DNA from: Micromonospora chersina
Lineage (GTDB): Bacteria > Actinomycetota > Actinomycetes > Mycobacteriales > Micromonosporaceae
Direction: 5' to 3'
NCBI RefSeq assembly: GCF_900091475.1
Contig: NZ_FMIB01000002.1
Coordinates: 1,302,001-1,366,000 of the forward strand
Length of the DNA stretch: 64,000 nucleotides
A model generated the notes under the pieces. The model was not told the DNA's origin. It saw only the letters and a program-made list of their open reading frames with translations, and did not search any database. The translations under genes were made by a program, and so were the position numbers. Positions 28,199 to 61,301 of this stretch are shown piece by piece. Positions within the stretch are counted from its first letter, which is position 1, and each line of letters begins with the position of its first letter.

Positions 28199-28216
28199 GC
28201 GTCACCCCGGCGTCAC
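28199..28216 (-). promoter_or_regulatory. SARP box before SARP 2
   Basis: On the minus strand GTGACGC (28216-28210), four bases, then GTGACGC (28205-28199): two identical heptamers at 11-bp period. A TACCCT hexamer follows nine bases downstream as a possible -10. It is the same design as the boxes before the CIS operons. Confidence 0.7.
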
Positions 28217-28229
28217 ATCGCCGCGGCCC

Positions 28230-28604
28230 TCACGGGGTGACGTCCCGGCCGACCAGGATGTCCAGCCGGGCCGGTTCGGCCGTGTCGTTGGTGAAGGTCA
28301 GGCTCGCCGGGTCCGCGCCGAGCAGCCGGGCCGCCCCGGCGCCCAGGAAGGCGTGCGCGCCGTCGAGCGCGATCGCCGTGCCGTCGATCTCGTACGACAG
28401 GTCGGCGCTGGGCGTGGCCGGCACGATCAGCACCATGCCGACCCGCTCGGTGCCGGCGGGCACCAGATCCACCTGCTGGCTCTCCCCGGCCGCGATCTCG
28501 ACCGAGACCTTGTCGTACGCCTCGACGTCGACGACGCCGGTGGCCGCGATCTGCGGCCCGTGGGCCACGCGGACCTGGAGGCTCCAGTTGATCTTCTCGG
28601 TCAT
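28230..28604 (-). CDS. Hypothetical protein near the CIS locus
   Basis: A 124-residue beta-rich protein (starts MTEKINWSLQVRVAHG). Segments such as VVDVEAYDKVSVEIAAGESQQVDLVPAGTERVGMVLIVPATPSADLSYEIDG suggest a beta-sandwich or lectin-like fold. It has no signal peptide or cysteines. RBS GGGAAGG precedes the ATG. It lies between SARP 2 and the 71-residue gene, all on the minus strand, and would be read from the SARP box at 28904-28932. I do not recognise a family; a structural or accessory role in the CIS is inference. Confidence 0.75.
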   Translation of the reverse strand: MTEKINWSLQVRVAHGPQIAATGVVDVEAYDKVSVEIAAGESQQVDLVPAGTERVGMVLIVPATPSADLSYEIDGTAIALDGAHAFLGAGAARLLGADPASLTFTNDTAEPARLDILVGRDVTP

Positions 28605-28631
28605 GTGCCTTCCCTGGGTCGGGCGGTGGGG

Positions 28632-28847
28632 TCACCGCGGTTGGTGACCGGCGAGGATGTCCACCAGTCGGCTGCGCACCACCTCGACGACCGCGTCCGG
28701 CGAGGTCACCGCCCGGCTCTCCGACCGGCCGCCGGCCAGGTCGACGCAGCTCGTCACCAGGGCGCGGAAGCCCAGCTCGTCCGGCCGGTCCTCGAACCAC
28801 ACCCGGACGACCACCACCCCACCGCGGTCCGGGTCAGGGGTTGTCAC
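28632..28847 (-). CDS. Small hypothetical protein under a SARP box
   Basis: A 71-residue protein (starts VTTPDPDRGGVVVVRVW; ends VRSRLVDILAGHQPR). GTG at 28847 is chosen because GGAGG lies seven bases upstream. The middle, WFEDRPDELGFRALVTSCVD, and a C-terminal amphipathic helix suggest a compact alpha/beta protein. It has the best match to the sheath promoter block (17 identical bases), so it is likely co-expressed with the CIS. No family is recognised. Confidence 0.7.
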   Translation of the reverse strand: MTTPDPDRGGVVVVRVWFEDRPDELGFRALVTSCVDLAGGRSESRAVTSPDAVVEVVRSRLVDILAGHQPR

Positions 28848-28903
28848 GGGAGCGCCTCCGGGGCGGGAGTCTGGTGCGCGGGCCGACCCAGCCTGCCGCC
28901 CGC

Positions 28904-28932
28904 CCGTCACCGGCCCGTGCCCACCGCGTCAC
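28904..28932 (-). promoter_or_regulatory. SARP box before the 71-residue gene
   Basis: On the minus strand GTGACGC (28932-28926), GGCACGG (28921-28915) and GTGACGG (28910-28904) fall at exact 11-bp steps. The last heptamer begins a 17-base block, GTGACGGGCGGGCGGCA (28910-28894), identical to 29520-29536 before the sheath gene. Distance to the start codon is 56 bases, against 57 for the sheath. Confidence 0.8.
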
Positions 28933-28991
28933 CGAACCACCTGGCGCCCGCTCCCGGCCAGCCGCCCGCTCGGGGCAGTAGTTTGGCGATC

Positions 28992-29432
28992 ATGGCGGAC
29001 TGGAAGATTCGGCCGGCTTCACGGGACGACGTCGAAGTGGTGGCCGAGTTGCGGGCCGTGGTGCTGAGGGCGGATCTGGAGCGGCTCGGGCGGTACGACG
29101 AGCAGCGGGTCCGGCAGCGACTGCGGGACGGGTTCGCGCCCGCCCACACCTGGGTGATCGAGGTGGGCGGCGCGTTCGCCGGCTGCGTGTCGCTGCGGCC
29201 GGCCGAGGACGCCCACTGGCTGGAGCATTTCTACCTGGCACCGCACCTGCAGGGCAGCGGCATCGGTGCGGACGTGCTGCGTCGGCTGCTGGAGCGGTGC
29301 GACCGCGAGGGCAGCCTGGTTCGGCTGAACGTGCTGCAGGGCAGCCCGGCCCGACGGCTGTACGAGCGGCACGGATTCACAGCCGAGACCGAGGACCCGG
29401 TGGACGTGTTCATGGTGCGCGAGCCGAGGTAG
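28992..29432 (+). CDS. GNAT acetyltransferase
   Basis: A 146-residue N-acetyltransferase: IRPASRDDVEVVAELRAVVLRADL (6-29), FYLAPHLQGSGIGADVLRRLLERC with the acetyl-CoA loop QGSGIG, and LYERHGFTAETEDPVDVFM at the end. It lies between the divergent SARP boxes of the CIS region, but no CIS role is indicated; it may simply be carried along. The substrate is unknown. Confidence 0.88.
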   Translation: MADWKIRPASRDDVEVVAELRAVVLRADLERLGRYDEQRVRQRLRDGFAPAHTWVIEVGGAFAGCVSLRPAEDAHWLEHFYLAPHLQGSGIGADVLRRLLERCDREGSLVRLNVLQGSPARRLYERHGFTAETEDPVDVFMVREPR

Positions 29433-29497: not shown

Positions 29498-29526
29498 GAC
29501 ACGGCCGGGTGACGGCGCGGTGACGG
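29498..29526 (+). promoter_or_regulatory. SARP box before the sheath operon
   Basis: GACACGG (29498-29504), GTGACGG (29509-29515) and GTGACGG (29520-29526) are spaced by exactly four bases, giving 11-bp period. Eight bases further, CACAGT (29535-29540) can serve as the -10; that 8-base distance is the one described for SARP-activated promoters. The sheath start codon is 57 bases downstream. Confidence 0.82.
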
Positions 29527-29583
29527 GCGGGCGGCACAGTCGCGCCAGCGGCGTACGGCCGCCCGTGGAGTCGAGGAGTCGTC

Positions 29584-31143
29584 ATGGCGGCAACGCTCAG
29601 CCATCCCGGGGTGTACATCCAGGAGATACCCGGCGGCAGTCGCACCATCACCGGCGTCGCCACGGCCGTGGCCGCGTTCGTCGGGCGGGCGCTGCGCGGG
29701 CCGGTGGACGTGCCGGTGGCCATCTCCTCGTACGCGGAGTTCGAACGCACCTTCGGCGGCCTGTGGCGGGACAGCGGCCTCGGCTACGCCGTCCGCGACT
29801 TCTACCTCAACGGCGGCAACCAGGCCGTGATCGTGCGGCTGGCCCGCGACGCCACCAGCGCGCAGCTCGACCTGAACGGCGCGCTGACCCTCGACGCGGT
29901 GGGGCCGGGCGGCTGGGGCAACGGGCTGCACGCCGAGGTGACGCACGCGTCCGGCGAGGAGGCCACCACTGTCGCCGACCAGCAGGGCGTGGACGCCGAC
30001 GAGCTGTTCCACCTGACCGTGCGGGAGGGCCCGGCGGAGAACCCGGTGCTGGTCGAGACGTACCCGAACGTGACCCTGGTGGACGGGCCGCGCCGGGTGG
30101 ACACCGTGCTGGCCGCGTCCCGGCTGGTCCGGGTGGGCACGGCGCCCGCGCTGCCCGGCACGGGCCGTCCCGACGCGGGCGGCTACGACGTGGACACCGC
30201 CGACCCGGCGGCCACCGGCACCGACGGGACGCACCTGACCGCCGCCGAGTACACCGACGGGGGTGCCCTGGAGGGCACCAAGCAGGGCATCTACGCGCTG
30301 CGCGACGCCGAGCTGTTCACCCTGCTGTGCCTGCCGCCGTCGGTGCCCGACCAGGCCCTCGACGACACCGTGTGGGCCGACGCGCTGGACTTCTGCGTAC
30401 GCCAGCGGGCCTTCCTGCTTGTCGACCCGCCGCCCACCGAGACCGCCGACACGGTGCGGGCCTGGGTCGGCGCCCGGGGGCTCACGGCCAACGGCCGCAA
30501 CGGGGCGCTCTACTTCCCGCGGGTGCGCCGGCCCGACCCGCTGCGCGCCGGCGCGGTCCGCGAGTTCGCGCCGTGCGGCGCGGTCGCCGGGGTGATGGCC
30601 CGCACCGACGCGGCGCGCGGCGTGTGGAAGGCGCCCGCCGGCGTGGAGGCCGCCCTCGCCGGGGTGACCGGGCCGGCGCTCGCGCTCACCGACGGCGAGA
30701 ACGGAAGCCTCAACCCGTACGCGGTGAACTGCCTGCGCACCTTCCGGGCCACCGGGACGCTGGTCTGGGGCGCGCGGACGCTGCGCGGCGCGGACGTGCT
30801 CGCCGACGAGTACCGGTACGTGCCGGTGCGGCGGCTGGCGCTCTTCCTGGAGGAGACGCTGGTCCGGGCCACCCAGTGGGTGGTGTTCGAGCCCAACGAC
30901 GAGCCGCTGTGGGCGCAGATGCGCGCCTCCATCGGCGGGTTCCTCCAGGACCTGTTCCGGCAGGGCGCCTTCCAGGGCCGCACCCCGCGGGAGGCGTACT
31001 TCGTCAAGTGCGACAGCGAGACCACCACGCAGTACGACATCGACCGGGGGGTGTTGAACGTCCTGGTCGGCTTCGCGGCCGTCAAACCGGCCGAGTTCGT
31101 GGTGATCGGCATCCAGCAGCGGACCGCGGCCGCGGCGACCTAG
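29584..31143 (+). CDS. CIS tail sheath protein
   Basis: A 519-residue contractile sheath subunit. The N-terminal arm reads LSHPGVYIQEIPGGSRTITGVATAVAAFVG (5-34), as in phage and eCIS sheaths. The conserved C-terminal domain spans about 415-515 (RYVPVRRLALFLEETLVRATQWVVFEPNDEPLWAQMRASIGGFLQDLF, TTTQYDIDRGVLNVLVGFAAVKPAEFVVIGIQQ). Only one sheath gene is present, unlike the three in Afp/PVC clusters. It heads the rightward CIS operon; RBS GAGGAG lies before the ATG. Sheath contraction would drive the inner tube. Confidence 0.96.
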   Translation: MAATLSHPGVYIQEIPGGSRTITGVATAVAAFVGRALRGPVDVPVAISSYAEFERTFGGLWRDSGLGYAVRDFYLNGGNQAVIVRLARDATSAQLDLNGALTLDAVGPGGWGNGLHAEVTHASGEEATTVADQQGVDADELFHLTVREGPAENPVLVETYPNVTLVDGPRRVDTVLAASRLVRVGTAPALPGTGRPDAGGYDVDTADPAATGTDGTHLTAAEYTDGGALEGTKQGIYALRDAELFTLLCLPPSVPDQALDDTVWADALDFCVRQRAFLLVDPPPTETADTVRAWVGARGLTANGRNGALYFPRVRRPDPLRAGAVREFAPCGAVAGVMARTDAARGVWKAPAGVEAALAGVTGPALALTDGENGSLNPYAVNCLRTFRATGTLVWGARTLRGADVLADEYRYVPVRRLALFLEETLVRATQWVVFEPNDEPLWAQMRASIGGFLQDLFRQGAFQGRTPREAYFVKCDSETTTQYDIDRGVLNVLVGFAAVKPAEFVVIGIQQRTAAAAT

Positions 31144-31154
31144 GAGGGGCGGGC

Positions 31155-31676
31155 ATGGCCGAGTTCACGGTCAACGCGCAGCGCTTCGACCCGTACAAGA
31201 ACTTCAAGTTCCGGGCGAAGTGGGACGGGCGATACGTCGCCGGGATCAGCAAGATCGGCACGCTGAAGCGGAGCACGGAGGTGGTCACCCACCGGCACGG
31301 CGGCGATCCGAGCAGCAGCCGCAAGTCGCCGGGGCGCACCGAGTACGACGCGATCGTGCTGGAGCGCGGCGTCACCCACGACCCGGACTTCGAGCAGTGG
31401 GCCAACAAGGTGTGGAACTACGGCTCCGGGCTGGGCGCGGAGACCTCCCTGGCGGACTTCCGCAAGGACATCATCATCGAGATGTACAACGAGGCCGGGC
31501 AGCTGGTCATCGCGTACAAGGTCTACCGGTGCTGGGTGTCGGAGTGGGTCGCGCTGCCCGAACTGGACGCGAACGCCAACGCGGTGGCCATCCAGAGCAT
31601 CAAGCTGGAGAACGAGGGCTGGGAACGCGACTACACGGTGGCCGAGCCGGCCGAGCCGTCCTTCGTCGAACCCTGA
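31155..31676 (+). CDS. CIS inner tube protein (gp19-like)
   Basis: A 173-residue T4 gp19/TIGR02241-type tube subunit: FTVNAQRFDPYKNFKFRAKWDGRYVAGISKIGTLKRSTEVVTHRHGG, then RTEYDAIVLERGVTHDPDFEQWANKVWNYGS and the C-terminal VYRCWVSEWVALPELDANANAVAIQSIKLENEGWERD. It forms the rings inside the sheath. It lies 11 bases after the sheath stop with RBS GGAGGGG. A single tube gene suggests a simple, uniform tube. Confidence 0.95.
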   Translation: MAEFTVNAQRFDPYKNFKFRAKWDGRYVAGISKIGTLKRSTEVVTHRHGGDPSSSRKSPGRTEYDAIVLERGVTHDPDFEQWANKVWNYGSGLGAETSLADFRKDIIIEMYNEAGQLVIAYKVYRCWVSEWVALPELDANANAVAIQSIKLENEGWERDYTVAEPAEPSFVEP

Positions 31677-31681: not shown

Positions 31682-32395
31682 ATGACCACGCTGGACGACC
31701 CCGGCCGGCTCCTCGCGGTCTGGGAGGCCGCCGCCACCGCCCCGCCGGCCGCCCGGGGCCCGGTGCTGCTGCACGCCGCCGGGCTCCTGCCCGACCTCGA
31801 CGCCGCCCTGGATCTCTCGGTCGGGACGGTCGCCGCGCTGGCCGCCCGGCTGCACGCCGACACCTTCGGCGACCCGGTCGACGCCGTGCTCACCTGCGCC
31901 TGTGGGGAGGTCCTCGACGTGGCGCTGCCCCTGGCGCCGGTCGCCGCGCTGCCGGCCGGCGACGCCGGGACGGTCGCCGACGGCACGCTGCGGGTCCGCG
32001 CCCCCACCGCCCGGGACCTGCTGGCCGCCGGGTGCTCCGAGGACCCGCTGGGCACGCTGCTGGCCCGCTGCGTCCGGGACGCCGCCGACCGGCCCGTCGC
32101 CCCCGGCGAGCTGACCGCCGAGCAGCGCGCGGCCGTCGACGCCGCCGCCGAGGAACTGGCCGGCGCGGCCGCCGTGGTGCTGCGGACCCGCTGCCCCGGC
32201 TGCGGGGAGACCGTCGTCGCCGCGCTGGACGTGGCGGAGCTGCTGTGGGAGCGGGTCGCCGGCCGCGCCCCGGCCGTGCTGGCCGAGGTGGCGACCCTGG
32301 CCGCCGCGTACGGCTGGGCCGAGGCCGACATCCTCGCCCTGCCGGCCGGGCGGCGGCGCGCGTACCTGGCCCTCACGGCGGGGCGGGCGGCGTGA
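31682..32395 (+). CDS. Putative T4-type baseplate hub assembly chaperone with zinc ribbon
   Basis: A 237-residue helical protein. Its position after the tube, and its layout, match proteins annotated as T4 family baseplate hub assembly chaperone in actinobacterial CIS loci. Two Cys pairs, C-x-C in LTCACGEVLD (about 75-77) and C-x2-C in RCPGCGETVV (about 171-174), look like a split zinc ribbon. The tail WAEADILALPAGRRRAYLALT resembles the gp26/51 type. It overlaps the next gene as GTGA. The assignment is moderate; the Cys motif is what I can see. Confidence 0.65.
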   Translation: MTTLDDPGRLLAVWEAAATAPPAARGPVLLHAAGLLPDLDAALDLSVGTVAALAARLHADTFGDPVDAVLTCACGEVLDVALPLAPVAALPAGDAGTVADGTLRVRAPTARDLLAAGCSEDPLGTLLARCVRDAADRPVAPGELTAEQRAAVDAAAEELAGAAAVVLRTRCPGCGETVVAALDVAELLWERVAGRAPAVLAEVATLAAAYGWAEADILALPAGRRRAYLALTAGRAA

Positions 32396-33270
32396 GCGGC
32401 GACGGCGGCTTCTTCGCCCGGCTGGCGCGGCAGGCCACCGGTCGGGAGCCGCTGGTCCGGCTCCGCGCCCCGCAACCCTTCGAGGTCGCGTGGCCCGACC
32501 CGCCGGCCGACCTGCCGGTCGAGGCGCCCGCGTCGTCGCCCGAGCCCGCCGCGCCGGCGTCGCGGGCGGTCCCGGACCGGCCGGCCGCGCGATCCGTCAC
32601 GGCGGCCGGCCGCACCGGGCCGGTGCCGGCCGCCCCGGACCAGCCGCGGTCGCACCGGTCGTGGTCGGACCGGTCGCGGGTGGACCCGACACCGCCGGCC
32701 ACGGCTTCCGAGACCGCCCCGGACCGGGCCGCCGCGCGGGCGGAGCCGGCCGGCCCGGCACGCCGCGAGCCGAACGGCCCGGCGGTCACGGACCCACCCG
32801 CCGCCACTCCCCCGGTGGCCGCCCCACCACCGGAGGTCGCCCGGCCGGCCGCCGTGGTCCCGGCCGCGCCGCCGGCCCCGGCGCCCGCCGCCCGCCGTCC
32901 CGCCCCCGGTCCGGTACGCGCCGCCGCGCCGGACCTGGCCCGGCTGCTGCGGGAACGCCTCGGCCCGGCGCTGGTCGCCCGGCGTGCCGTGGAGCCCGGG
33001 GAGCGCCTCGTCTTCGTAAACCGGCCGGCCCCGGCCGCCACGCCGCCCCGGCCCGGCACCGCCGAGGTGCGCACCGGCCCGATCCGTCCCGCGCCGGCCG
33101 TGCCACCCGGAGCGGCCGAGGACCCACCGCCGCCCGGCGACGTCCACCTGCACATCGACCGGGTCGTGGTGACCCGCGCGCCCAGCCCGCCGCCGCCCGC
33201 GCCGGCGCCACCGGCCCGCTCCACCGTGGACCACGCCGCGTACCTCGCCCGCCGCCGGGAGGGCCGATGA
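32392..33270 (+). CDS. Proline/alanine-rich hypothetical protein of the CIS operon
   Basis: A 292-residue protein: a short ordered head (SGDGGFFARLARQATGREPLVRLRAPQPFEVAWPD), a long disordered Pro/Ala/Arg-rich middle (about 40-180), and a small helical module (APDLARLLRERLGPALVARRAVEPGERLVFVNRP). Next is a second Pro-rich linker, then GDVHLHIDRVVVTR and a C-terminal YLARRREGR. The two short modules on flexible linkers suggest a scaffold or tether. It is coupled on both sides by four-base overlaps, so it is an integral operon member. No family is recognised. Confidence 0.75.
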   Translation: MSGDGGFFARLARQATGREPLVRLRAPQPFEVAWPDPPADLPVEAPASSPEPAAPASRAVPDRPAARSVTAAGRTGPVPAAPDQPRSHRSWSDRSRVDPTPPATASETAPDRAAARAEPAGPARREPNGPAVTDPPAATPPVAAPPPEVARPAAVVPAAPPAPAPAARRPAPGPVRAAAPDLARLLRERLGPALVARRAVEPGERLVFVNRPAPAATPPRPGTAEVRTGPIRPAPAVPPGAAEDPPPPGDVHLHIDRVVVTRAPSPPPPAPAPPARSTVDHAAYLARRREGR

Positions 33271-34517
33271 GCAACAGCCTCGCCATCGCCGCCGTCACCT
33301 CGACCCTGCGGTACGTCCTCGAACGGGCCCTCGACGCCACCCACCCCGGGCCGGTCGGCGGCGCCACCGTGACCACGCTGCGCCCCAACCAGCTCTCCGA
33401 CACCGCCCTGGTCACCGCGCCCGGCATCAACATCTACCTGTACGACGTGCGCCCCAACCACGCCTGGAACCTCAGCGACCTGCCCACCCGGGGCCGCGAC
33501 GGCGGCTTCACCCGCCGGCCGGTCGCCGCGCTCGACCTGTACTACCTGCTCACCTGCTACGGCGAGGCCGAGTCCCTCGACGCGCAGCGGCTGCTCGGCC
33601 GGGCCGTGCTCGCCCTCGCGGTCACCCCGACGCTGACCCGGGACGTGGTCACCGCCGCGATCGACCTGTACGCCGACGACGTGCCGACCGCCTTCCTCGC
33701 CGAGTCCGACCTGGCCGACCAGGTCGAGCGGGTCAAGGTCGCCCCGTACACGCTGTCGGTGGAGGAGATGTCGAAGCTGTGGGCCACCTTCGCCACCCCG
33801 CACCAGCTGTCCCAGACGTACGTGGCGACGGCCGCGCTCGTCGAAGCCGACGTCACCCCGCGCCGGGCGCTGCCGGTGCGGCAGCGCCCCGTCACCGTCC
33901 TGGCCGGCGGCCCCACCGTGCTGACCGCCCTGGTCACCGACCCGCCCGGCGGGACCGCCGCCACCGGCGACCGGGTCGAGCTGCGCGGCGCCGGGCTGCG
34001 CGGCCGCCCCGGGCAGACCACCCGAGTCCACGTCGGACCGGCCACCCTCACTCCTGACCCCGGCGGCACCGACAGCGCCCTCGCCGTCACCCTCGACGGC
34101 ACCGTGCCGGCCGGGCTGCACGGCGTACGGGTCGCGCACGTCACGCCGGCCGCCGGTGGCGCGCCCGCCCGGGTCACCGCAGGCTCCAACGCCCTGCCGC
34201 TGCTGGTCCGCCCGACCGCCTCGGTGGTGGACGGCCCGCCCGACATCGTGCTCGGGGTGGACCCGCCGCTGATGCCCCGGCAGCGGGCCACCGTCCTGCT
34301 CAGCCGGCTCACCCCCGGCCCGGCCGGCGAGCCGGACGCCCTCGCCATCCGGCTCGCCCCGCTCGCTCCCGACGCCGCCCCGCAGGACCGGCTCGCCCTC
34401 GCCACCGGCGACGTGCCCAGCGGCGACTGGCTCGTCCGGGTGCAGGTCGACGGGGTGGACAGCCTGCCCGACCTGGTCGGAGAGGTTTACGGCGCGCCCG
34501 CCCTGACCGTGCCGTGA
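33267..34517 (+). CDS. DUF4255 protein (Pvc16/Afp16-like tube-terminating cap)
   Basis: A 416-residue protein. The N-terminal DUF4255 domain spans about 1-190: SNSLAIAAVTSTLRYVLERAL, INIYLYDVRPNHAWNLSDLPTRGRDGG, RRPVAALDLYYLLTCYG, and VEEMSKLWATFATPHQLSQTYVATAALVE. Afp16/Pvc16 proteins with this domain stop tube and sheath growth and cap the particle. The C-terminal half (200-415) looks like two Ig/IPT-like beta domains, probably external decoration. It overlaps the ATPase start as GTGA. Confidence 0.9.
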   Translation: MSNSLAIAAVTSTLRYVLERALDATHPGPVGGATVTTLRPNQLSDTALVTAPGINIYLYDVRPNHAWNLSDLPTRGRDGGFTRRPVAALDLYYLLTCYGEAESLDAQRLLGRAVLALAVTPTLTRDVVTAAIDLYADDVPTAFLAESDLADQVERVKVAPYTLSVEEMSKLWATFATPHQLSQTYVATAALVEADVTPRRALPVRQRPVTVLAGGPTVLTALVTDPPGGTAATGDRVELRGAGLRGRPGQTTRVHVGPATLTPDPGGTDSALAVTLDGTVPAGLHGVRVAHVTPAAGGAPARVTAGSNALPLLVRPTASVVDGPPDIVLGVDPPLMPRQRATVLLSRLTPGPAGEPDALAIRLAPLAPDAAPQDRLALATGDVPSGDWLVRVQVDGVDSLPDLVGEVYGAPALTVP

Positions 34518-52871: not shown

Positions 52872-55432
52872 GACATCACCCCGATCGTCAGGTCGGTGAG
52901 GGTGAGCACCTGGGCGGGGCGCAGCGTCCCGGCGAACCGGCCGGGCAGCGCGGCCAGGAGGTCGACGGCGGCGGCGCCGGGCGGCGCGGCGAGCCGGGGC
53001 AGGGTGCAGGCGCGCACCCCGGGCACCGCGCGGACGGTGACGAGGGCCCGGGAGGCCACCACGCCGGTGGCGAAGCCCAGCGCCGGCGGCGTGTACGCGG
53101 CCGCGAGCGCGGCCCGGACGGCGGACTCCACGTCGGCGCGCGGGTACGCCGGGTCGTGCGCGAGGTCGACGTGCAGTCCGAACGGGACGGTCTCCCCCGC
53201 GAGCACGGCGAGCCGGGTGCCCGGGTCCCGGGCGGCCACCAGGGCGGCGCGCAGCGCGGCGACCAGCTCCGGCCCGGCCGGGGCGGCCCCGCCACCGGCC
53301 GCCGCGCCGAGCGCGGAGACGACGACCACCTGCTCCCGGCCGTCCCACACGTCGTCGGCGCGGGCCAGGGTGACCCCGGCGAATCCGGCCGCGAAGTCCT
53401 CGTGGTCGGCCACCGAGACCGCCCGGTCCAGGGTGCGGATCCGTAGCGGGGCGTGCGACCGGGCCGCGTCGAGCTGTTCCGGGTCGGCCCAGTCGCGGGC
53501 GGGGCCCGGGTTGGCGGCGGCCCGCACCCCGTAGGGGCGGCGGGGCAGGATGCTGAGCTGGCCGGCCCGGACCGCGCCGGCGGCGCCGACACCGACCCGG
53601 TAGGTGGCCACGACGTTCTCGACGCCGCCGGGCAGCCGGGCGCCGTGCCGGCCGTCGCCGGTGGTGACGGTGGCCAGGCCCTCGTCGTCGAGCCGTTCGG
53701 TGTGCACCCGGTCGTGCGGGCCGGCGGTGTCCAGCGCGGGCACCGGATCCCAGCGCACCCCGTCGACCCGGACCTCCAGGGTGCTGCGGGCGCCGGCGGG
53801 GCTGTCGTCGCGGACGTGGGTGAGCGGGCCGCGCCGGGTGCGCATCCGCTGGAAGGCGAGGGTGGGGTCGCCGCTGCCGAGCGGCTGGACGACGGTCTCG
53901 CCGTGGCTGGCCGGCGCGACGTTGCCGCGTACCCGCAGGCCGCGCGGGTCGTAGCTCAGGATGAGGTCGCGGTCCAGGTCGACGGTCATGGTCCGGCCGT
54001 CGGCGGCGACCGTGCAGGCCAGCACCACCGCGGTCTCGGCCAGCGGGGGCGCGGTGGCCGCCGCGACGAGCGGGTCGGCGGGCGGCCCGCCGGGCGGGAA
54101 CCCGGTCACCACGACCCGCCGGCCGGTGGGCAGTGGCGGGTCGGTGGCGGCCAGGGTGAGCCGCCGGCCGCCGACCGGCTCCACGAGGGGCCGCTCCGCC
54201 GCCGGCAGGGGCCGGGACTCGCCGCGTACGAGGGTGTCCCGCCGGCCGAAGGTGTCCAGGTTCTCGGTGATGTCGACGCGCAGCCGGGTGGTCCGGCCGC
54301 TGACCCCGAACCGGGAGCCGCCGGCCGGGTCGGCCGCCTCGACGGCGTACAGCTCGCGGTAGTCGGGGCGTTCCAGCAGCAGCCAGGAGCCGGGCACCAT
54401 CCGGGGGTGGTCGCCGTCGACCTCGACCACGTCGGCGGGGTGCGGGTTCCCGGGCGGGAACGGGTTGCCGATGTCGTCCCACTCGCCGTTGGTGATGCCG
54501 GGCGGCGGCGGGTCGTTGCCGGCGAGCAGGCCAGCCATCGGCGCGTTCCAGCCGAACAGGTTGGTGCGGGTGGCGAAGGCGTGCACCTGCACGCCCTCCT
54601 CGGCGGTCAGCGGCGTCGAGCGCCGCCAGCCGATCCGCTCGGCCAGTGCCAACCGGGTCCAGCCGGCCAGGCCGGGCGGGCCCTCCTCGACGGCCGTGAC
54701 GATGCGGAAGTCCCACCGCTCGTCGTCGCGCCGCCGGTCGGCGGCGGCCCGGCTGTGGACGGGGGTACGCCCGTAGCGGCGACGTTCGGCCCCCACCACC
54801 AGCACGCCGTCGCCGGCCCGCACGCCGAGGGCGGTGCCGCGCAGCCAGATCGCGTCGGTGGCGAAGTCGATCTCCTGCGGCCCGGCGGTGGCGCCGGGGA
54901 TCGCGTTCCACACCGCGTACGCGCGCAGGTCGGCGCCGGTCTCGAAGGTCTGCGGCAGCTCGCCCTGCCCGGGCACCGACTGCACCGGGGTACCGGCGGG
55001 CACGTCCACCTCCGGCGGTGCGCCGGGAGCGTCCTCGACGTCGAAGGCGATGTCCACGGCGGCGGCGACGCCGGGGCGGGGCTGGTAACCGATCATGCCG
55101 GCGAGGTGCCGCACCGAGGTCAGCTCGGTGGCGGTGCGCAGGTACGCCTCCTGCGCGATCCGCTCGGTGTAGAAGGAGACCACGTCGGTCATCACGGCGG
55201 CGGCGTCGAGCAGCGCCAGCATCGGATCGTCGGCGTCCTGCCCGGCCACGGCCCGCACGCCGGCCGGCAGGCCCGGGTCGGCGAGCGCGGCCCGCATCCG
55301 GGCCAGGGCGTGGCTGTGCGGGGCGACCCGCCACGCCAGGGCCGGCTGGCCGGGCGGGTTGGTCACGTCGGGCGCGGGCGGGCGCAGCGGGTCGCACCCG
55401 CATCCGCCGCCGCAGCCGCAGCCGCAGCTCAC
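52868..55432 (-). CDS. Putative baseplate assembly protein (J-like, Pvc12-type) with Cys-rich N-terminus
   Basis: An 854-residue wedge protein of the TIGR02243/gpJ class: MLALLDAAAVMTDVVSFYTERIAQEAYLRTATELTSVRHLAGMIGYQPRPGVAA (about 70-123). Typical late segments are LTHVRDDSPAGARSTLEVRVDGVRWDPVP and DRAVSVADHEDFAAGFAGVTLARADDVW. The first residues, SCGCGCGGGCGC, hold six cysteines in 12 positions, which is odd for a cytoplasmic baseplate protein. The GTG start at 55432 overlaps the preceding stop. Confidence 0.88.
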   Translation of the reverse strand: MSCGCGCGGGCGCDPLRPPAPDVTNPPGQPALAWRVAPHSHALARMRAALADPGLPAGVRAVAGQDADDPMLALLDAAAVMTDVVSFYTERIAQEAYLRTATELTSVRHLAGMIGYQPRPGVAAAVDIAFDVEDAPGAPPEVDVPAGTPVQSVPGQGELPQTFETGADLRAYAVWNAIPGATAGPQEIDFATDAIWLRGTALGVRAGDGVLVVGAERRRYGRTPVHSRAAADRRRDDERWDFRIVTAVEEGPPGLAGWTRLALAERIGWRRSTPLTAEEGVQVHAFATRTNLFGWNAPMAGLLAGNDPPPPGITNGEWDDIGNPFPPGNPHPADVVEVDGDHPRMVPGSWLLLERPDYRELYAVEAADPAGGSRFGVSGRTTRLRVDITENLDTFGRRDTLVRGESRPLPAAERPLVEPVGGRRLTLAATDPPLPTGRRVVVTGFPPGGPPADPLVAAATAPPLAETAVVLACTVAADGRTMTVDLDRDLILSYDPRGLRVRGNVAPASHGETVVQPLGSGDPTLAFQRMRTRRGPLTHVRDDSPAGARSTLEVRVDGVRWDPVPALDTAGPHDRVHTERLDDEGLATVTTGDGRHGARLPGGVENVVATYRVGVGAAGAVRAGQLSILPRRPYGVRAAANPGPARDWADPEQLDAARSHAPLRIRTLDRAVSVADHEDFAAGFAGVTLARADDVWDGREQVVVVSALGAAAGGGAAPAGPELVAALRAALVAARDPGTRLAVLAGETVPFGLHVDLAHDPAYPRADVESAVRAALAAAYTPPALGFATGVVASRALVTVRAVPGVRACTLPRLAAPPGAAAVDLLAALPGRFAGTLRPAQVLTLTDLTIGVMS

Positions 55433-57933
55433 GCGCCACCGCGCAGGTGGAAGGCGACCCGGCCGTACTCAGGGTTGCTCGGGTCGCTGTCGGCGCGCAG
55501 CACCTCGCGGGCGGCGGCGTCGATCCGGCCGCGGGCCACCTCCCCGGCGGGCGGCCGGCCGAGCCGGCGGAACCGCAGGCCGGTGGCGTCGTCGTCGGCC
55601 ACCTCGACGTAGCCGACGCCGGGCACCGCCATGACGGCGGCGACCAGGTCGGAGACGTACAGGGACTGGCCGAAGGTGAGCCGGTCGGGGTGGAAGAAGC
55701 CGAGCCGGCCGTCGGGCAGCACCCGGGTGGACAGTTCGGCGCGCAGGCGGCGTTCCACGTCGGCGGCGAGGTGGCCGTCGGCCACGCAGATCCCGAGGAC
55801 GATCTCCAGCGGCACGTGCGCGGGCGGGGCCAGCTCCACGTCGGTGCCGGCCAGCCGGCGTACGTCGAGCAGGGCGGCCACCTCGTCGGCGAGCCCGGGG
55901 TCGCCGGCCCGGCGGGCCACCGGGTCGAGGGTGACCTCCTGGGCGTACCAGGAGCCGGTCCAGCGGCGCCGGGCCACGGCGCGCTGCACGCCCGGGTTCT
56001 CCTCGGCGGCGGCGGCGTGGTCGGCGCTGGTGACCGCGCGCAGCTGGGTCCGGAACGCGTACGGGGCCAGCTCCTTCACCTCGTCGACCGACTCGGCGTC
56101 GACGCCGCCGGTGGCCGGGAGCGGGTTGCTGACGCTCACCCCGGCCGGCACCGCCCACGCCGCGGTGGGCAGCGGCAGGGTGAGCACGTCCGCGCCGACG
56201 TTGCCGGCGGTGCCGCCGCCCACCCGGGGCCACGCCGTGAGGGTGACGCCGGGCGCGGGGCGCCGACCGTTGATCCCGTCGCCGGGGCGCAGCCGCAGCA
56301 CGCCTGTGGTCTCCGGTTCGGCCACCACGTGCGGGTCCAGCCGGCCGCTGGCCAGCAGGTCCGGCACGGGCGTCCAGGTGCGGCTGCCGTCGTCGAGCAG
56401 CACGGCGGGCAGCGCGCGGCGCGGGTCGGGACGCAGCGCGGCGGCGGCGCTGCGCGCGTCCACCGCCGCGTCGGTCCAGGCGACCGGGTGCCGCCCGGTG
56501 GGCAGCCGCGGCCGGTACGCGCCGTCGTCGGGGGCCTGCGGCGGTAGCAGCCCGCGCGGGGGCAGCCCCCCGGCGTGCTCGGCGAGCGCGACGTTCGCGA
56601 GGGCCACGGCGGCCGGGGCGGCGGTGCCGTCGGCGGCACGGCGGGCCACCGGCAGCGGCACGGCCAGGGCGTCCTCGGCCGCCCAGTGCAGCTCGCGGAC
56701 AACCGTGCCGGCGGGGGCGAGCGGGTCGGCCCGGGTGACCGGGTCGCGGTCGAGCCGGACGGCGTGCCGGCGGGCCTCGTCGCCCACCACGGTCCCGGTC
56801 TCGTCGACCGGCGCCAGGACGAGCACGTCGCCGGCGCGCAGCTGCGGGTCGGCGGCGGCCGGGTGGCGCAGCCAGCCGCTGGTGGCGCCGGCCGGCAGGC
56901 AGGCGTCCGGGTCGCCCCAGGCGTGCAGGTCGAGCTGGTTGCGAGCCGGGCGCAGCGCCAGCGGGGCGAGGGTCTCGAAGACGGTGGCGCCGGCGTCCAC
57001 CGCGACCTCGACCCCGGCGTCGGGCGGCAGCGGGTCCTCGACCCCGGCGACCGGGGTACGCGCCGGCAGGGTCAGCGGCGCGGCGGTGTGCCACGCCAGC
57101 CAGGTCCGGGCCGCGCAGCCGTCGTGCATCCGGTAGTCCAGCAGCCGGGCGTGCCGGCGTACCGAGGAGCGCAGCCGGGCGGTGGCCAGGTGCGCCTCGG
57201 CGGCGATCGCGTCCTGCCGGTAGGTGAGCCGGTCCCCCACGTACGCGAACAGCTCGGCGAGGGTGACCAGCGGGTCGGCCGGGTTGCTGTCGGTCCAGCC
57301 GGGCAGCAGCACGGCGAGCCGGTCGAGCAGCCGGGTGCGCAGTCCGGCGTAGTCGCGGGCCAGGTAGTCCAGGGCGGGCGTGGTGGCGGGCACCGGAGGG
57401 CACCCGTCGTCGGGCCGGCAGTCCAGTTCGTCGGGGCAGTCGACGGCGAAGGCGAACGGGCAGGTGGACAGCGGCTCGTCGAAGCCGGCCGGGAAGCCGT
57501 CGCCGCCCGCGCCGGTGAGGGTGAGCAGGTAACTGGACCAGTCCCCGCTGGAGGAGGTGCGCACCACGAGCACCCGGGCTCGCGCGGGCGCCGGCACCGC
57601 ACCGGTCACCAGCGTCCGGTCGGCCGCGGTCACCCCCGGCGGCGGCCCGGCCGCCACCACGTTCGCCGGGTACGCCCAGAGCACCCGCACCGGGTTGACC
57701 CGCGGGTCGACGCGCACCCCGCCGAGGACGCGGACCCGGCCGGCGTCGAGGTCGGCGGGGACCGGGCCGCGCAGCAGGTGCACGAGGAGGGTGCGCTGGC
57801 GGGGCGCGCCGGGCACGTGGCCGGGGGTGCCGGGCCGGTTCGACAGCACCTCGACGTGGTCGATGCCGTCGAGGGCGCTCTCCCCCTCGACGAGCGCCCG
57901 GCGGGCCTCCCGGTCGAGCAGCGCCCCGGTCAC
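55429..57933 (-). CDS. Putative baseplate assembly protein (J-like, Pvc11-type)
   Basis: An 834-residue TIGR02243-like wedge protein. Marks are ALDYLARDYAGLRTRLLDRLAVLLPGWTDSNPADPLVTLAELFAYVGDRLTYRQDAIAAEAHLATARLRSSVRRHARLLDYRMHDGCAARTWLAW (about 185-280), LKELAPYAFRTQLRAVTSADHAAAAE-type region (about 625-650) and ADVERRLRAELSTRVLPDGRLGFFHPDRLTFGQSLYVSDLVAAVMAVPGVGYVEV near the end. GTG start 57933. With the next gene it forms the heterodimeric baseplate wedge. Confidence 0.9.
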   Translation of the reverse strand: MTGALLDREARRALVEGESALDGIDHVEVLSNRPGTPGHVPGAPRQRTLLVHLLRGPVPADLDAGRVRVLGGVRVDPRVNPVRVLWAYPANVVAAGPPPGVTAADRTLVTGAVPAPARARVLVVRTSSSGDWSSYLLTLTGAGGDGFPAGFDEPLSTCPFAFAVDCPDELDCRPDDGCPPVPATTPALDYLARDYAGLRTRLLDRLAVLLPGWTDSNPADPLVTLAELFAYVGDRLTYRQDAIAAEAHLATARLRSSVRRHARLLDYRMHDGCAARTWLAWHTAAPLTLPARTPVAGVEDPLPPDAGVEVAVDAGATVFETLAPLALRPARNQLDLHAWGDPDACLPAGATSGWLRHPAAADPQLRAGDVLVLAPVDETGTVVGDEARRHAVRLDRDPVTRADPLAPAGTVVRELHWAAEDALAVPLPVARRAADGTAAPAAVALANVALAEHAGGLPPRGLLPPQAPDDGAYRPRLPTGRHPVAWTDAAVDARSAAAALRPDPRRALPAVLLDDGSRTWTPVPDLLASGRLDPHVVAEPETTGVLRLRPGDGINGRRPAPGVTLTAWPRVGGGTAGNVGADVLTLPLPTAAWAVPAGVSVSNPLPATGGVDAESVDEVKELAPYAFRTQLRAVTSADHAAAAEENPGVQRAVARRRWTGSWYAQEVTLDPVARRAGDPGLADEVAALLDVRRLAGTDVELAPPAHVPLEIVLGICVADGHLAADVERRLRAELSTRVLPDGRLGFFHPDRLTFGQSLYVSDLVAAVMAVPGVGYVEVADDDATGLRFRRLGRPPAGEVARGRIDAAAREVLRADSDPSNPEYGRVAFHLRGGA

Positions 57934-58313
57934 GGGGTGCCGCCCACGACGGTGAGGCTGCGGCGCTCGCCGACGGTGGCCCCGGCGACCAGCGGCACGT
58001 AGCTGACGGTGACCCGCAGTTGGGCGTCGACCGCCTCGACCCGCACGTCGTCGATCTGCACGAGGTCGCCGAGCCAGCGTTGCAGGGCGCCGTGCACCAG
58101 CGCCCGGGTGGCGTGCGCCATCTCGTCGCCGGCCGGGGCGAAGACCAGCCGGTCGACGCCGCTGCCGAAGTCGGGCCGGTTGACCCGTTCCCCGGGCCGG
58201 GTGAACAGCACCGCCTCGACCAGGCCGCGCAGGTACTCCTCGTCGCCGACCAGGGCGGTGCGGCCGCGGCCGCCGACGCGCAGCGGGAAGCCGACGTGCC
58301 GGCCGGCGCTCAC
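57930..58313 (-). CDS. GPW/gp25-family baseplate protein
   Basis: A 127-residue gp25/gpW wedge protein with lysozyme-like fold but no lysozyme activity in the family. VGFPLRVGGRGRTALVGDEEYLRGLVEAVLFTRPGERVNRPDFGSGVDRLVFAPAGDEMAHATRALVHGALQRWLGDLVQIDDV covers the conserved core, including the EEPR-like PGERV...PDFG motif. GTG 58313 is the start, overlapping the previous stop. It nucleates sheath attachment to the baseplate. Confidence 0.92.
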   Translation of the reverse strand: MSAGRHVGFPLRVGGRGRTALVGDEEYLRGLVEAVLFTRPGERVNRPDFGSGVDRLVFAPAGDEMAHATRALVHGALQRWLGDLVQIDDVRVEAVDAQLRVTVSYVPLVAGATVGERRSLTVVGGTP

Positions 58314-58627
58314 GTCGCCACCGCCCGGAACTGGCTGGCGGTGACGGCGAGCGGCACCCCGGTCGGCGCGCAGGTGGCCAGGCCGGAGGCCAGCACGAGG
58401 GGCTGCCCCATCGAGCGCACCCGGACGCTGCCGACGCTCCACACGCTGGTCACGCACGGACCGCCGGAGACCGGCGGGAACGGGCACGCCGCCACCGTCC
58501 ACGGCGCGGCGAGCAGCACGGTGGACTGCCCGCCGACGCGTACCCGGGGGTTGGGCACGGTGGGCATCGCCTGGCCGCCGTGCGCGCAGATCACCACGGC
58601 GCCCTGGTGCACGAGGGGCCCGGGCAT
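58310..58627 (-). CDS. PAAR-like spike tip protein
   Basis: A 105-residue protein: PGPLVHQGAVVICAHGGQAMPTVPNPRVRVGGQSTVLLAAP, then ACPFPPVSGGPCVTSVWSVGSVRVRSMGQPLVLASG. The repeated short beta segments, the CxHGG start and a Cys/His set resemble PAAR/DUF4280 proteins that sharpen spikes. ATG 58627 overlaps the upstream stop by one base. Its neighbour is the gpV spike, as expected for a tip protein. Confidence 0.72.
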   Translation of the reverse strand: MPGPLVHQGAVVICAHGGQAMPTVPNPRVRVGGQSTVLLAAPWTVAACPFPPVSGGPCVTSVWSVGSVRVRSMGQPLVLASGLATCAPTGVPLAVTASQFRAVAT

Positions 58628-59124
58628 CACATCACCTCCAGCGCGCCGTCGTTGACCGAGACCCGCACGCCGTCGAGGACCACCTTGGTGGCGCCCGTGG
58701 ACAGCTCGATCCCGCCCGGGCCCAGCACCACCTTGAGCGGGATCAGCACGGCCGGCGGCCCCACCTCGATGGTCAGGCCGCCCATCATGGGCAGGTCGCT
58801 GACCGTGACGCTCACCGAGTCGGACTGGAACACCCGCTGCTGCGGCAGCCCGGGCGCGGGCGACTCGCCGATCTGCCAGTAGCAGCCCAGTAGGACGGGG
58901 TAGTCGGGGTTGCCGCCCTCGAACGCCACCCAGGCGGCGGCGCCCACCGGCGGCAGGTTGAACCCGCCGACGCCGTTGCCGGCGTAGGGCACGCACGGCT
59001 CGGCCCAGGCCAGCCGGCCGTCGCCGAGCACCTTCGGGACGGAGACCTGCACCCGCCCGCGCAGCATCGGGTCCAGGTTCTGCTCCACCTTTCCCCGGTA
59101 GACGCCGAAGAACTGCCGGGTCAT
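58627..59124 (-). CDS. Baseplate spike protein (gpV/VgrG OB-fold-type, Pvc8-like)
   Basis: A 165-residue spike: RQFFGVYRGKVEQNLDPMLRGRVQVSVPKVLGDGRLAWAEPCVPYAGNGVGGFNLPPVGAAAWVAFEGGNPDYPVLLGCYW is the OB-fold signature of phage baseplate assembly protein V/VgrG. It is followed by a short beta-rich stalk. It sits between the hub (gpD-like) gene and the tip gene, matching the order in known CIS clusters. Confidence 0.9.
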   Translation of the reverse strand: MTRQFFGVYRGKVEQNLDPMLRGRVQVSVPKVLGDGRLAWAEPCVPYAGNGVGGFNLPPVGAAAWVAFEGGNPDYPVLLGCYWQIGESPAPGLPQQRVFQSDSVSVTVSDLPMMGGLTIEVGPPAVLIPLKVVLGPGGIELSTGATKVVLDGVRVSVNDGALEVM

Positions 59125-59143
59125 CGCCGCTCCTCCCGGGTGG

Positions 59144-60295
59144 TCACAGTGGGCTCCGGGGCAGCGCGGGGGTGACCGAGCCGTGGCCGTCCCGGGACAG
59201 GGTGAAGCCGAACCGGTAGCCGCCGTAGGCGAGGTCGTGCTCGACCTGGCGGACGTACCAGAGCCCGTCGTGGCTCCAGCCAGCGCCGCGCATGCCGACC
59301 AGGCCGCGCGGGCGCAGCACCGCCCCGTACCGGGCGCCGTCGGCGCTGCCCTCGGCGACCAGCGCGTCGGCGCTGCGGTCCACCTCGCCCTGCGCGCGGG
59401 CGAAGGCGGAGACCGCGTCGCTGCTGCCCTCGCGCAGCCGGCGCCGCCGCACGTCCCCGGCGTTGGCCAGGGCGAACGGCACGGCGGCCAGCGGCGGCCG
59501 GGTGCTCACCACCGCGGCGACCGGCAGCGTGACTCCGGTACGCCGGTCGTGCACCGCCCCGGTGACGGTGGCCGGCCGGGTCGCCTCGGTGCGGAAGGAC
59601 ACCTCCCGCACGTTGCTGTCCGAGCCCAGGTCGACGGCCAGCGCGGGCTGCGGCAGGCCGAGGCGCACCGGCGGTCCCCAGTAGAACGAGCTGATCCCGG
59701 GCACCGGGCCGGGGTCGACGTAGGTGACGTAGCCGTGCCGCTCGGCCAGTTCGGCCAGGTGTTCCAGGTCGGTGCCGTGCTGGGTGGGGATCCGGTCGAT
59801 CGGCAGCGGCGGGTCGGTGACCGGCGCGGGCAGCGCCTTGGGCAGGATGCCGCGCGCCGCGTACGGGGCGAGGATCTTCAGCACGGTCAGGTAGTCGTCG
59901 AGGGCGGGGTGCTCGACGTCGCGGTCCTCGCGGTCGAGCAGGTTGCCCACGTCCTCGCCGGTGACCGTGAAGGTGGCCCGCCCGGCGCCGGTGCCCGGGT
60001 CGAGCCGGGTCTCGGTGACGATGCCGTCGAAGAGCACCTTCGGCACCACGCCGAAGGTGAGCACCAGCACGACCCGGGCGAACGGCACCAGTGGGCCGGT
60101 CGGCCCGAACGGGCTGTCCACGGCGGCCAGCGGGCCGGCCCGGCCGGCGTCGAAGACCAGGGAGAAGACGCTGCGCTCGGCGTCGCTCTCGGTGACCCGG
60201 GTGGACCGCCAGCGCTGGGCCAGGTCGACCGACAGCGGCAGCGGCACGGTCCGTCCCGCCAGGACAGTGAGCCGCAGCCCGGACCCGAGCAGCAC
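59144..60295 (-). CDS. Hub protein (gpD/late control-like)
   Basis: A 383-residue tail hub protein: a beta-rich N-terminus (VSLVFDAGRAG-type), VVLVLTFGVVPKVLFDGIVTETRLDPGTGAGRATFTVTGEDVGNLLDRED (about 78-127), and TDLEHLAELAERHGYVTYVDPGPVPGISSFYWGPPVRLG, as in P2 gpD/VgrG N-terminal modules. The C-terminus GLWYVRQVEHDLAYGGYRFGFTLSRDGHG closes the typical barrel. GTG 60295 start. It links the tube to the spike. Confidence 0.85.
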   Translation of the reverse strand: MLLGSGLRLTVLAGRTVPLPLSVDLAQRWRSTRVTESDAERSVFSLVFDAGRAGPLAAVDSPFGPTGPLVPFARVVLVLTFGVVPKVLFDGIVTETRLDPGTGAGRATFTVTGEDVGNLLDREDRDVEHPALDDYLTVLKILAPYAARGILPKALPAPVTDPPLPIDRIPTQHGTDLEHLAELAERHGYVTYVDPGPVPGISSFYWGPPVRLGLPQPALAVDLGSDSNVREVSFRTEATRPATVTGAVHDRRTGVTLPVAAVVSTRPPLAAVPFALANAGDVRRRRLREGSSDAVSAFARAQGEVDRSADALVAEGSADGARYGAVLRPRGLVGMRGAGWSHDGLWYVRQVEHDLAYGGYRFGFTLSRDGHGSVTPALPRSPL

Positions 60296-60296
60296 G

Positions 60297-60596
60297 TCAC
60301 ACCCCCGGCAGTGGGATGACGATCAGCTCGCCCTCGGCGTCCGGGCCGGTCAGCGCCTCCGGGTCGAGCGCCCCGTTGGCGTCGGCGATCCGCCACCACG
60401 CGGTGGCGTCGCCCAGGTACCGGTGGCTGACCAGGTCGATCCGGTCCCCGGCGCTCACCCGGTGGGTGGCGGCGGCCCGCACGTCGCGCAGGTCCGGCAG
60501 GGGACGCCGGCGCAGGTAGCGCACCTCCCGCAGGCCGCCGGCGCCGTCGGGCACGGTCGTTCCGGCCACGGGTACGGAGTCGTAGCGCCCGGTCAT
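60297..60596 (-). CDS. LysM-like tail protein X
   Basis: A 99-residue gpX/LysM-type adaptor: YLRRRPLPDLRDVRAAATHRVSAGDRIDLVSHRYLGDATAWWRIADANGALDPEALTGPDAEGELIVIP matches the LysM pattern (THRVSAGDRIDLVSHRYLGDATAWWRIADANG). In phages this subunit joins tube and hub. It is only one base away from each neighbour, so it is tightly co-translated. Confidence 0.82.
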   Translation of the reverse strand: MTGRYDSVPVAGTTVPDGAGGLREVRYLRRRPLPDLRDVRAAATHRVSAGDRIDLVSHRYLGDATAWWRIADANGALDPEALTGPDAEGELIVIPLPGV

Positions 60597-60597
60597 G

Positions 60598-61251
60598 TCA
60601 CGCTCCGGCCAGGTCGGTGACGGCGTCGACGGCGCCGCTGACCGCGCCCACCATGGCGAGGACCTCCTTGGCGACCAGGTGCGCGAGGTAGAGCCCGTAG
60701 CCGACGTCGGTCAGCGACAGGTCGTCGTAGGTGAGCACCTGGGCGGAGACGTCCACGGTCGCCCGGATCGGGCTGAGCGCCGGGTTGAACGCCTGCTCGG
60801 TGACGCCGAGCTGGGTGATCCGCACCGGCACCACCCGCGCCGGCCCCCAGACCAGCACCGCCATGGGCAGCTCCACCGGGAGGATCTCGATGGTCCCGGC
60901 GGCCAGCAGCACCGAGTTGGCGATCACCCGCACGCTGCCCGGGTGCAGCAGCATCTCCAGCACGGACAACTGGGGCAGGACGCCGACGGTGGCGGCCACC
61001 GGATCGCCGGTCTCCAACTGGTCGGCCGCGTCGACATCGACCGTCATGGTGATCGTCTCGGTGGGCGCGCCCCAGGCGCGGTGCGCGTCGGCGGCGCGCT
61101 GCCCGGACTCCCCGCCCGAGCGGGGCGCGATCGTGCGCTGCACCTGGTCCGGGTTGTACTGGAACACCACCACCCGGGACAGCGGCCCCAACGGGTCCAC
61201 CGCGATGATGGCGCCGCGCAGGGTGCGCGGACTGCCCGGGAAGCTGCTCAC
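60598..61251 (-). CDS. CIS tube-domain protein (Pvc7-like hub adaptor)
   Basis: A 217-residue protein: LRGAIIAVDPLGPLSRVVVFQYNPDQVQRTIAPR (the FxYNPxxxxR mark of CIS tube proteins), TETITMTVDVDAADQLETGDPVAATVGVLPQLSVLEMLLHPGS, and VWGPARVVPVRITQLGVTEQAFNPALSPIRATVDVSAQVLTYDDL. The GTG at 61251 is my start; one further upstream (GTG 61290) cannot be excluded and would place the SARP box inside the gene. It is the first gene of the leftward 18-kb operon. Confidence 0.85.
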   Translation of the reverse strand: MSSFPGSPRTLRGAIIAVDPLGPLSRVVVFQYNPDQVQRTIAPRSGGESGQRAADAHRAWGAPTETITMTVDVDAADQLETGDPVAATVGVLPQLSVLEMLLHPGSVRVIANSVLLAAGTIEILPVELPMAVLVWGPARVVPVRITQLGVTEQAFNPALSPIRATVDVSAQVLTYDDLSLTDVGYGLYLAHLVAKEVLAMVGAVSGAVDAVTDLAGA

Positions 61252-61283
61252 GCCGCCGAGGGTCCCGCGGAGCCGTCGCCCCG

Positions 61284-61301
61284 CCGTCACGCCCGCGTCA
61301 C
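61284..61301 (-). promoter_or_regulatory. SARP box before the leftward CIS operon
   Basis: On the minus strand GTGACGC (61301-61295), four bases, GTGACGG (61290-61284): two heptamers at 11-bp period. A possible distal element, CCGTGTC, lies at 61312-61306, one further 11-bp step. The sequence after the last heptamer is similar to the sheath block, with one base fewer. The box lies 32 bases above the chosen start codon. Confidence 0.75.

Follow-up and report, generated by a model that had tools for sequence, protein, structure and literature searches.

We analyzed a 64,000-nucleotide stretch of Micromonospora chersina DNA (the window; bases 1302001-1366000 of contig C2, NZ_FMIB01000002.1, in a genome of 6.68 Mb [6,683,691 bp] labeled G000) that encodes a contractile injection system, identified by its tail sheath, spike, gp25, baseplate J proteins, AAA ATPase and extracellular contractile injection system (eCIS) core domain. 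Four sites in this locus, S1 to S4, are very probably promoters of one regulon that depend on a Streptomyces antibiotic regulatory protein (SARP), read by a small SARP that is most likely SARP 2, one of two encoded in the locus. A first-pass annotation had proposed SARP operators tying the locus into one regulon, and the four repeat sites on which it relied are all present. The operator assignment is supported by conservation, association with SARP genes, geometry relative to the -10 element, recurrence in other genera and a census with its control, and the single regulon survives comparison with congeners, with other genera and across the class.

In the proposed mechanism, a small SARP, most likely SARP 2, would bind side by side on three GTGACGS heptamers spaced 11 bp apart, the last lying 8-9 bp before an xAxxxT -10 element. 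The bound protein would recruit RNA polymerase in place of the -35 contact, as AfsR does, and would thereby switch on the sheath operon, the spike/baseplate operon and the 71-aa gene with its neighbor. SARP 2 would also activate its own gene through S4, creating positive feedback. We infer the binding, activation, autoregulation, start sites and identity of the binding SARP from sequence comparison.

Anatomy, rarity and conservation of the operators

S1 (29498-29526, plus strand) precedes the genes for the sheath, two small proteins, a Pvc16_N protein and the AAA ATPase. It consists of the heptamers GACACGG, GTGACGG and GTGACGG, separated by CCGG and CGCG, and is followed after 8 bp by the -10-like hexamer CACAGT (29535-29540, plus strand); with this hexamer it is the sole perfect match in the genome to two boxes plus -10. 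S2 (61273-61301, minus strand) precedes the leftward operon for the spike, gp25 and two baseplate J proteins. Its boxes GTGACGC and GTGACGG, separated by GGGC (61284-61301), had been taken for the whole site, which overlooked a third box, GCGACGG (61273-61279); the -10-like GACCCT (61259-61264, minus strand) lies 8 bp past the last box. S3 (28904-28932, minus strand), ahead of the 71-aa and 124-aa genes, comprises GTGACGC, GGCACGG and GTGACGG, separated by GGTG and GCCG, with CAGGCT 8 bp farther on (28890-28895, minus strand). S4 (28199-28227, minus strand), the SARP 2 promoter, has two strong GTGACGC boxes separated by CGGG (28199-28216), a poor third box, GCCGCGG, upstream to 28227, and the -10-like TACCCT 9 bp past the last box (28184-28189, minus strand). 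All four sites display the published geometry of SARP promoters, heptamers on an 11-bp period followed by an xAxxxT -10 element. Among the details annotated earlier, a 17-base block common to two sites, start-codon distances of 57 (S1) and 56 (S3) bases and the 11-bp period are correct; the number of boxes is three rather than two, with one poor at S4, and the 8-bp gap to the -10 holds at S1-S3 and becomes 9 bp at S4.

The GTG start at 61251 lies 7 bp beyond the S2 -10 element, where transcription is expected to begin, and by eye the changes at third codon positions in five genomes begin at this GTG. Together, these features suggest that the mRNA of the S2 operon is likely leaderless from the GTG. 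The same operon in Actinopolymorpha rutila and Streptomyces tibetensis has, by eye, an ATG or GTG 7-8 bp after the -10.

The first-pass annotation had proposed searching the genome for GTGACG[GC]-N4-GTGACG[GC]. The exact pattern occurs three times, always within the window, and its reversed control not at all. A three-box pattern with at most two mismatches likewise has three genomic matches, namely S2, S3 and S1 (one or two mismatches each). Exactly three mismatches give nine matches; seven lie elsewhere in the genome, and the two inside the window are S4 and S1 read in a shifted register. The control totals six at up to three mismatches. Two boxes plus a -10 element are found 22 times (control, 3), five of them in the window. 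Frequent occurrence elsewhere had been named as grounds for abandoning the operator; the strict form proved unique to the locus, and only loose forms are common. We therefore rejected the motif alone as proof, since loose matches abound. A wider regulon within the genome was also rejected: 7 of the 17 two-box-plus--10 matches outside the window are intergenic, by the calls of the simple GC-frame gene finder that also supplied gene starts, and none is established as a target.

The same locus is present in Micromonospora fulviviridis, M. chaiyaphumensis and Micromonospora sp. MA102. Footprints were aligned among six genomes including that of M. chersina for S1, S3 and S4, and among five for S2 (G146 left out). 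Boxes and -10 element are invariant at S1 (6/6) and at S2 (5/5), and upstream of these boxes little is common to all, with some similarity retained at S2 among M. chersina, G038 and G014. At S4, both strong boxes are kept save one last base in G038, and the -10 is kept. At S3, the first period is 12 bp in four relatives (12+11 spacing), and three show a different last base.

Recurrence beside SARP and injection genes

In A. rutila, SARPs of 58 and 55% identity lie 25-27 kb from the sheath gene and adjoin baseplate genes. Triple repeats, 8 bp from a -10, stand ahead of the sheath and of the baseplate operon, and a two-box site with the same gap stands ahead of a SARP. In S. tibetensis, triple repeats (1-2 mismatches) stand upstream of three units, namely the sheath, the baseplate operon and a divergent gene, and the contig that carries them ends with a SARP-like gene of 36% identity. 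On a plasmid of Streptomyces clavuligerus, the tail operon is divergent from a SARP and from a 66-aa gene that is a homologue of the 71-aa gene. Multi-box repeats, weaker than those above, lie ahead of the tail operon (9 bp to the -10) and of the 66-aa gene (8 bp), and the boxes before the SARP lack a well-placed -10. Two other plasmid SARP regions had no annotated tail genes in the stretch examined. Within the Micromonosporaceae outside the genus, seven genomes contain a homologue of SARP 2 with an E value no higher than 1e-52, and the pattern is mixed. Tail genes were found by tblastn in G301 and G351, only an AAA homologue in G199, G229 and G230, and no tail genes in G204 (60 kb) or G214 (a 9.6-kb contig). 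Boxes with a well-placed -10 (TATAGT, TAGCTT, TACCTT and others) occur in G351, G199, G204 and G230, and none was found in G301, G229 or G214.

Over 37 loci (654,962 bases), most of them injection loci, there are 35 two-box matches at up to one mismatch, overlapping registers counted separately, vs. three for the reversed control. A -10 at the right distance, counted from the pair or from one further box, accompanies 22 of the 27 intergenic matches vs. 2 of the 8 genic ones. In 18 promoters that we chose rather than sampled, the gap to the -10 is 8 bp in 15 and 9 bp in 3. We also scored 80 named sheath loci by script, with 300 shuffles each and a threshold of p 0.01 or less. The operator is significant in 6 of the 16 actinobacterial loci (three are close Micromonospora, and L191 is borderline at 0.01) and in none of the 64 non-actinobacterial loci.

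A census of 394 genomes of the class, M. chersina included, sought three boxes plus -10, one mismatch being allowed, and returned six matches in five genomes (control, one), four of which we take to be injection loci that also hold a SARP. These are S2 itself; a site in G411 directly ahead of the sheath, with a SARP just upstream; one in G626, flanked by a SARP and a Pvc16 gene within a complete injection locus whose sheath is preceded by a second triple repeat; and one between a SARP and an AAA-WHD ATPase gene on a 3.9-kb contig (G379:C85). The fifth (G747:C3) has a SARP about 2 kb away and no injection genes found in 38 kb. At the sixth (G379:C35; L293, L301 83-1633), a strict triple operator lies ahead of a DUF346 gene, and neither SARP nor tail genes were found in the contig examined; this gene is perhaps a distant regulon member. 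Taken with the other genera, these sites suggest that injection machines of other actinobacteria with like switches are probably turned on by a SARP-type activator.

Among 160 genomes of the genus Micromonospora, a homologue of SARP 2 is present in 156 (E no higher than 1e-25) and a sheath homologue in 43 (1e-60), and 135 contain at least one exact two-box match. Distances from match to SARP were taken in 78 genomes (G000 to G091), among the 150 matches listed in full and the SARPs listed with them, and 135 of these matches fall outside the clade sharing the locus. Of those 135, 31 lie less than 1.5 kb from a listed SARP, all at 272-390 bp and divergent from it, and a further seven lie at 1.5-40 kb. 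Placement of the -10 was examined at the first match in each of 29 genomes, the near-SARP group being set by hand.

Six of the seven matches at 1.5-40 kb fall in injection systems of another class, class B, which was identified in G016 from PHROG matches to tail sheath (6.3e-8) and baseplate wedge (4.7e-33) and judged elsewhere by gene sizes and promoter only. The arrangement GTGACGG-N5-GTGACGS-N4-GTGACGG occurs in 14 of 15 class B loci, with a weaker copy in the fifteenth (G121), and a SARP 44.5-46.9% identical to SARP 2 closes the operon in the three read (G079, G016 and G052). The divergent system of G016 (L110 5582-20000), with 13 loci of similar promoter, has a 389-aa sheath that Pfam missed and PHROGs found. 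In class C (G095, G147, G114 and G027), six to eight NNNACGN boxes at 11 bp are followed after 8 bp by GAGAAT (CAGAAT in G095), the sheath ATG lies 6 bp past the -10, and a SARP stands directly upstream in both loci read, G114 and G147. The box run of this class (L064, L067, L068 and L070, at about 420-530, in sheath orientation) makes an unusually long SARP-like operator. Thirty sheath loci of the genus were examined, 24 of them outside the clade, and the four of these 24 with a box match are those of class C.

Within the window, the sheath gene (29584-31143, plus strand; Pfam Phage_sheath) is followed on the same strand by two small genes (31155-31676 and 31682-32395) in the tube position, their role assigned from gene order; the Pfam scan covered one frame here, the longer one holding the second gene, and found no match. 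The Pvc16_N protein (32490-34517) and the AAA ATPase with a WHD domain (34514-36424), also on the plus strand, were recognized by domain matches. The leftward operon opens with a gene labeled 'LysM-like' (60598-61251, minus strand), which has no Pfam match and whose product has 62% identical homologues in A. rutila and S. tibetensis. Domain matches identify the spike (Phage_base_V, 58627-59124), gp25 (57930-58502) and two Baseplate_J proteins (55429-57933 and 52868-55432), as well as an open frame with the eCIS_core domain, of approximate gene bounds (43017-49718), all on the minus strand. Divergent from this operon is a frame with a subtilase domain (Peptidase_S8; 60731-62455, plus strand). 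The 71-aa gene (28632-28847, minus strand) has 45% identity over 62 aa to a small gene of the S. clavuligerus plasmid injection locus, and the 124-aa gene between S3 and S4 (28230-28604, minus strand), without a Pfam match, is probably co-transcribed with it. Small genes of 66-71 aa recur beside SARPs and tail genes (window 28632-28847; L287 19672-19869; L168 2296-2463), with repeats upstream both in the window and on the S. clavuligerus plasmid.

Candidate readers and alternative explanations

Two SARP genes do lie inside the locus, as first annotated: SARP 1 (26659-27414, plus strand; 251 aa; BTAD, E 2.8e-12) and SARP 2 (27345-28148, minus strand; 267 aa; BTAD, E 4.8e-13), each with an N-terminal OmpR-type winged helix ahead of the BTAD domain. 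The two genes converge, sharing 70 bases at their 3′ ends (27345-27414). The structure predicted for SARP 2, the one SARP modeled, matches the folds of the AfsR SARP domain and EmbR. Upstream of SARP 1 there is no two-box site at up to one mismatch, and a single GTGACGG about 275 bp upstream falls inside a two-mismatch match (26368-26385). SARP 2 is most likely the reader of the operator. Its closest database match is from M. chersina (99%). A SARP of Nonomuraea sp. B5E05 (P0002) shares 81% identity with SARP 2, much more than in the other genera compared, and a recent transfer of the locus is possible.

Loose definitions of the operator carry no information: at up to three mismatches, two-box matches are not enriched in the window (75 vs. 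104 +/- 11 expected), and at up to two mismatches the genome holds 519 vs. 303 for the control. Several observations weigh against a regulon read by SARP 2. At S4, just two boxes are good and the gap is 9 bp, and the sequence identity of SARP 2 to AfsR is low (phmmer E 0.0035). Among the outside-clade exact matches in the genus, 97 of 135 are not near a listed SARP. Boxes occur without tail genes in G204 (60 kb), and G301 has tail genes without a two-box match. The boxes of class C are only NNNACGN, short of the strict GTGACGS pattern, and 20 of the 24 outside-clade sheath loci have no two-box match at up to one mismatch before the sheath on its strand. G137, with tail genes and two SARPs, has a triple repeat before the SARP pair only. 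Related injection loci, which the first-pass annotation had suggested searching, yielded the operator in A. rutila, S. tibetensis and, more weakly, the S. clavuligerus plasmid, and did not yield it at 10 of the 16 actinobacterial sheath promoters (Rhizocola, Catellatospora, S. hiroshimensis and others); a SARP operator for every actinobacterial injection system was rejected on this ground. Finally, the operator also serves a type II polyketide SARP, whose copy in the same genome could be its reader.

It is conceivable, if rather unlikely, that a mixed complex of SARP 1 and SARP 2 binds the operator. SARPs repeatedly occur in pairs, both in injection loci that have tail genes (G137, G351 and A. 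rutila) and beside the AAA homologue in G199, G229 and G230. Yet one SARP only was identified in the class B and C loci examined and in the S. clavuligerus plasmid stretch, and we found no evidence of hetero-oligomers.

We consider it improbable that the polyketide-cluster SARP of this genome (G000:C2:271.3-272.3 kb) is the main reader, which would place the injection system in a polyketide regulon with the local SARPs secondary. Its locus carries GTGACGCTGCGTTGACGC and GTGACGGCCACGTGACAG before the SARP itself and a cyclase gene, and its recognition-helix region resembles that of SARP 2. In congeners, the exact pattern is divergent from a polyketide SARP: the three divergent loci read (G006, G000 and G003) have the SARP beside polyketide cyclase, acetyl-CoA carboxylase and ketosynthase genes, and exclusivity of the motif to injection systems was rejected on the strength of the 31 genus matches divergent from a SARP and of a match ahead of a monooxygenase gene. 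However, A. rutila, S. tibetensis and other genera have SARPs of their own, together with the operator, in their injection loci, and the best matches in the M. chersina genome are at the injection locus, not the polyketide locus. Near-copies of the operator are carried by the type II polyketide SARP locus (L106 4823-6433) and by a monooxygenase gene; the latter match, at G000:C2:139.6 kb (L270), precedes an FAD monooxygenase gene, with similar sequences by eye in G009 and G028. Cross-talk between the polyketide locus and the proposed injection regulon is possible.

It is highly improbable that these sites are occupied by a different regulator of the OmpR type, for example PhoP, which likewise recognizes direct repeats of 11 bp. 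The PHO-box heptamer, GTTCACC, does not fit GTGACGS, and the motif tracks SARP genes across genomes. PhoP and AfsR do recognize overlapping repeats at afsS, as described in the portion of PMC10972967 available. Least credible is a chance or codon-driven repeat in GC-rich DNA. Degenerate versions are common and show no enrichment in the window, but within this genome the strict ones are confined to the locus, and they are intergenic, conserved and at the right distance from the -10.

A SARP-dependent regulon read by SARP 2 could be an instance of something broader, and we put this forward tentatively, as an idea that may well reach too far. One SARP operator code would be common to polyketide clusters and several unrelated classes of injection system across actinobacteria, wiring phage-tail weapons into the antibiotic and development cascade. 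Its operators would run from two to as many as eight boxes at 11-bp spacing, with SARP monomers lined up on them in chains, and within a single cell the polyketide and injection regulons would truly influence each other.

Comparison with known systems

The first-pass annotation had held SARP control of a contractile injection system to be undescribed. This stands for the operator, as no description of operator, binding or regulon for a SARP on injection loci was found in the open-licence literature. A BTAD regulator had nevertheless been proposed already: in the portions available, Geller et al. 2021 treat BTAD as an eCIS shell domain and possible regulator (PMC8213781; repeated in PMC12961389), and such earlier proposals of BTAD/SARP regulators rested on gene neighborhood. 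The operators add what may be a rule, stated at the level of sequence, for how injection systems are switched on in a group of actinobacteria. They would extend SARPs from antibiotic genes to a nanomachine, with exact promoters and a probable leaderless start predicted. Expressing the cluster SARP is suggested as a simple route to see what silent particles look like and do, and, as type II polyketide SARPs share the box, a coupling between the antibiotic and injection programs could be tested directly.

SARP sites are described as repeats of 11 or 22 bp, the last one 8 bp from the -10, and the AfsR SARP domain on the afsS promoter likewise has 11-bp direct repeats and an 8-bp gap, with a -10 of CACTGT vs. 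CACAGT at S1 (available text of PMC10936776). The AfsR SARP domain and SARP 2, as predicted, share a two-domain fold. Unlike SARP 2, AfsR is a large SARP with a two-repeat 22-bp box of other repeat sequence, and its targets in that text are antibiotic regulators rather than injection genes. The operators of DnrI, ActII-ORF4 and PimR resemble those here in having three heptamers and a cluster-situated SARP, and PimR heptamers have the same 4-bp spacers; the PimR heptamer, CGGCAAG, differs, and the targets are secondary-metabolite genes (PMC10972967 and PMC5930380, in the parts available). The Micromonospora type II polyketide SARPs (L105, L106 and L107), 41-46% identical to SARP 2, have the same GTGACGS-type repeats, but their neighbors are cyclase, acetyl-CoA carboxylase and ketosynthase genes instead of tail genes.

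On the side of the targets, SlpR/SCO4263 of Streptomyces lividans and S. coelicolor is, in the available text of PMC8505568, a cluster-situated regulator of an actinobacterial injection system, as proposed here for SARP 2, but of the LuxR type. GSU1771 of Geobacter, the only case found in the open-licence literature of a SARP-family mutant altering injection or phage-tail genes, is a receiver-SARP fusion from another phylum; its deletion alters a phage-tail gene cluster, which goes up in the mutant, and the available text of PMC10599522 describes no direct binding to that cluster. Set beside these systems, the regulation proposed for the M. chersina locus is a known mechanism acting on a new class of target.

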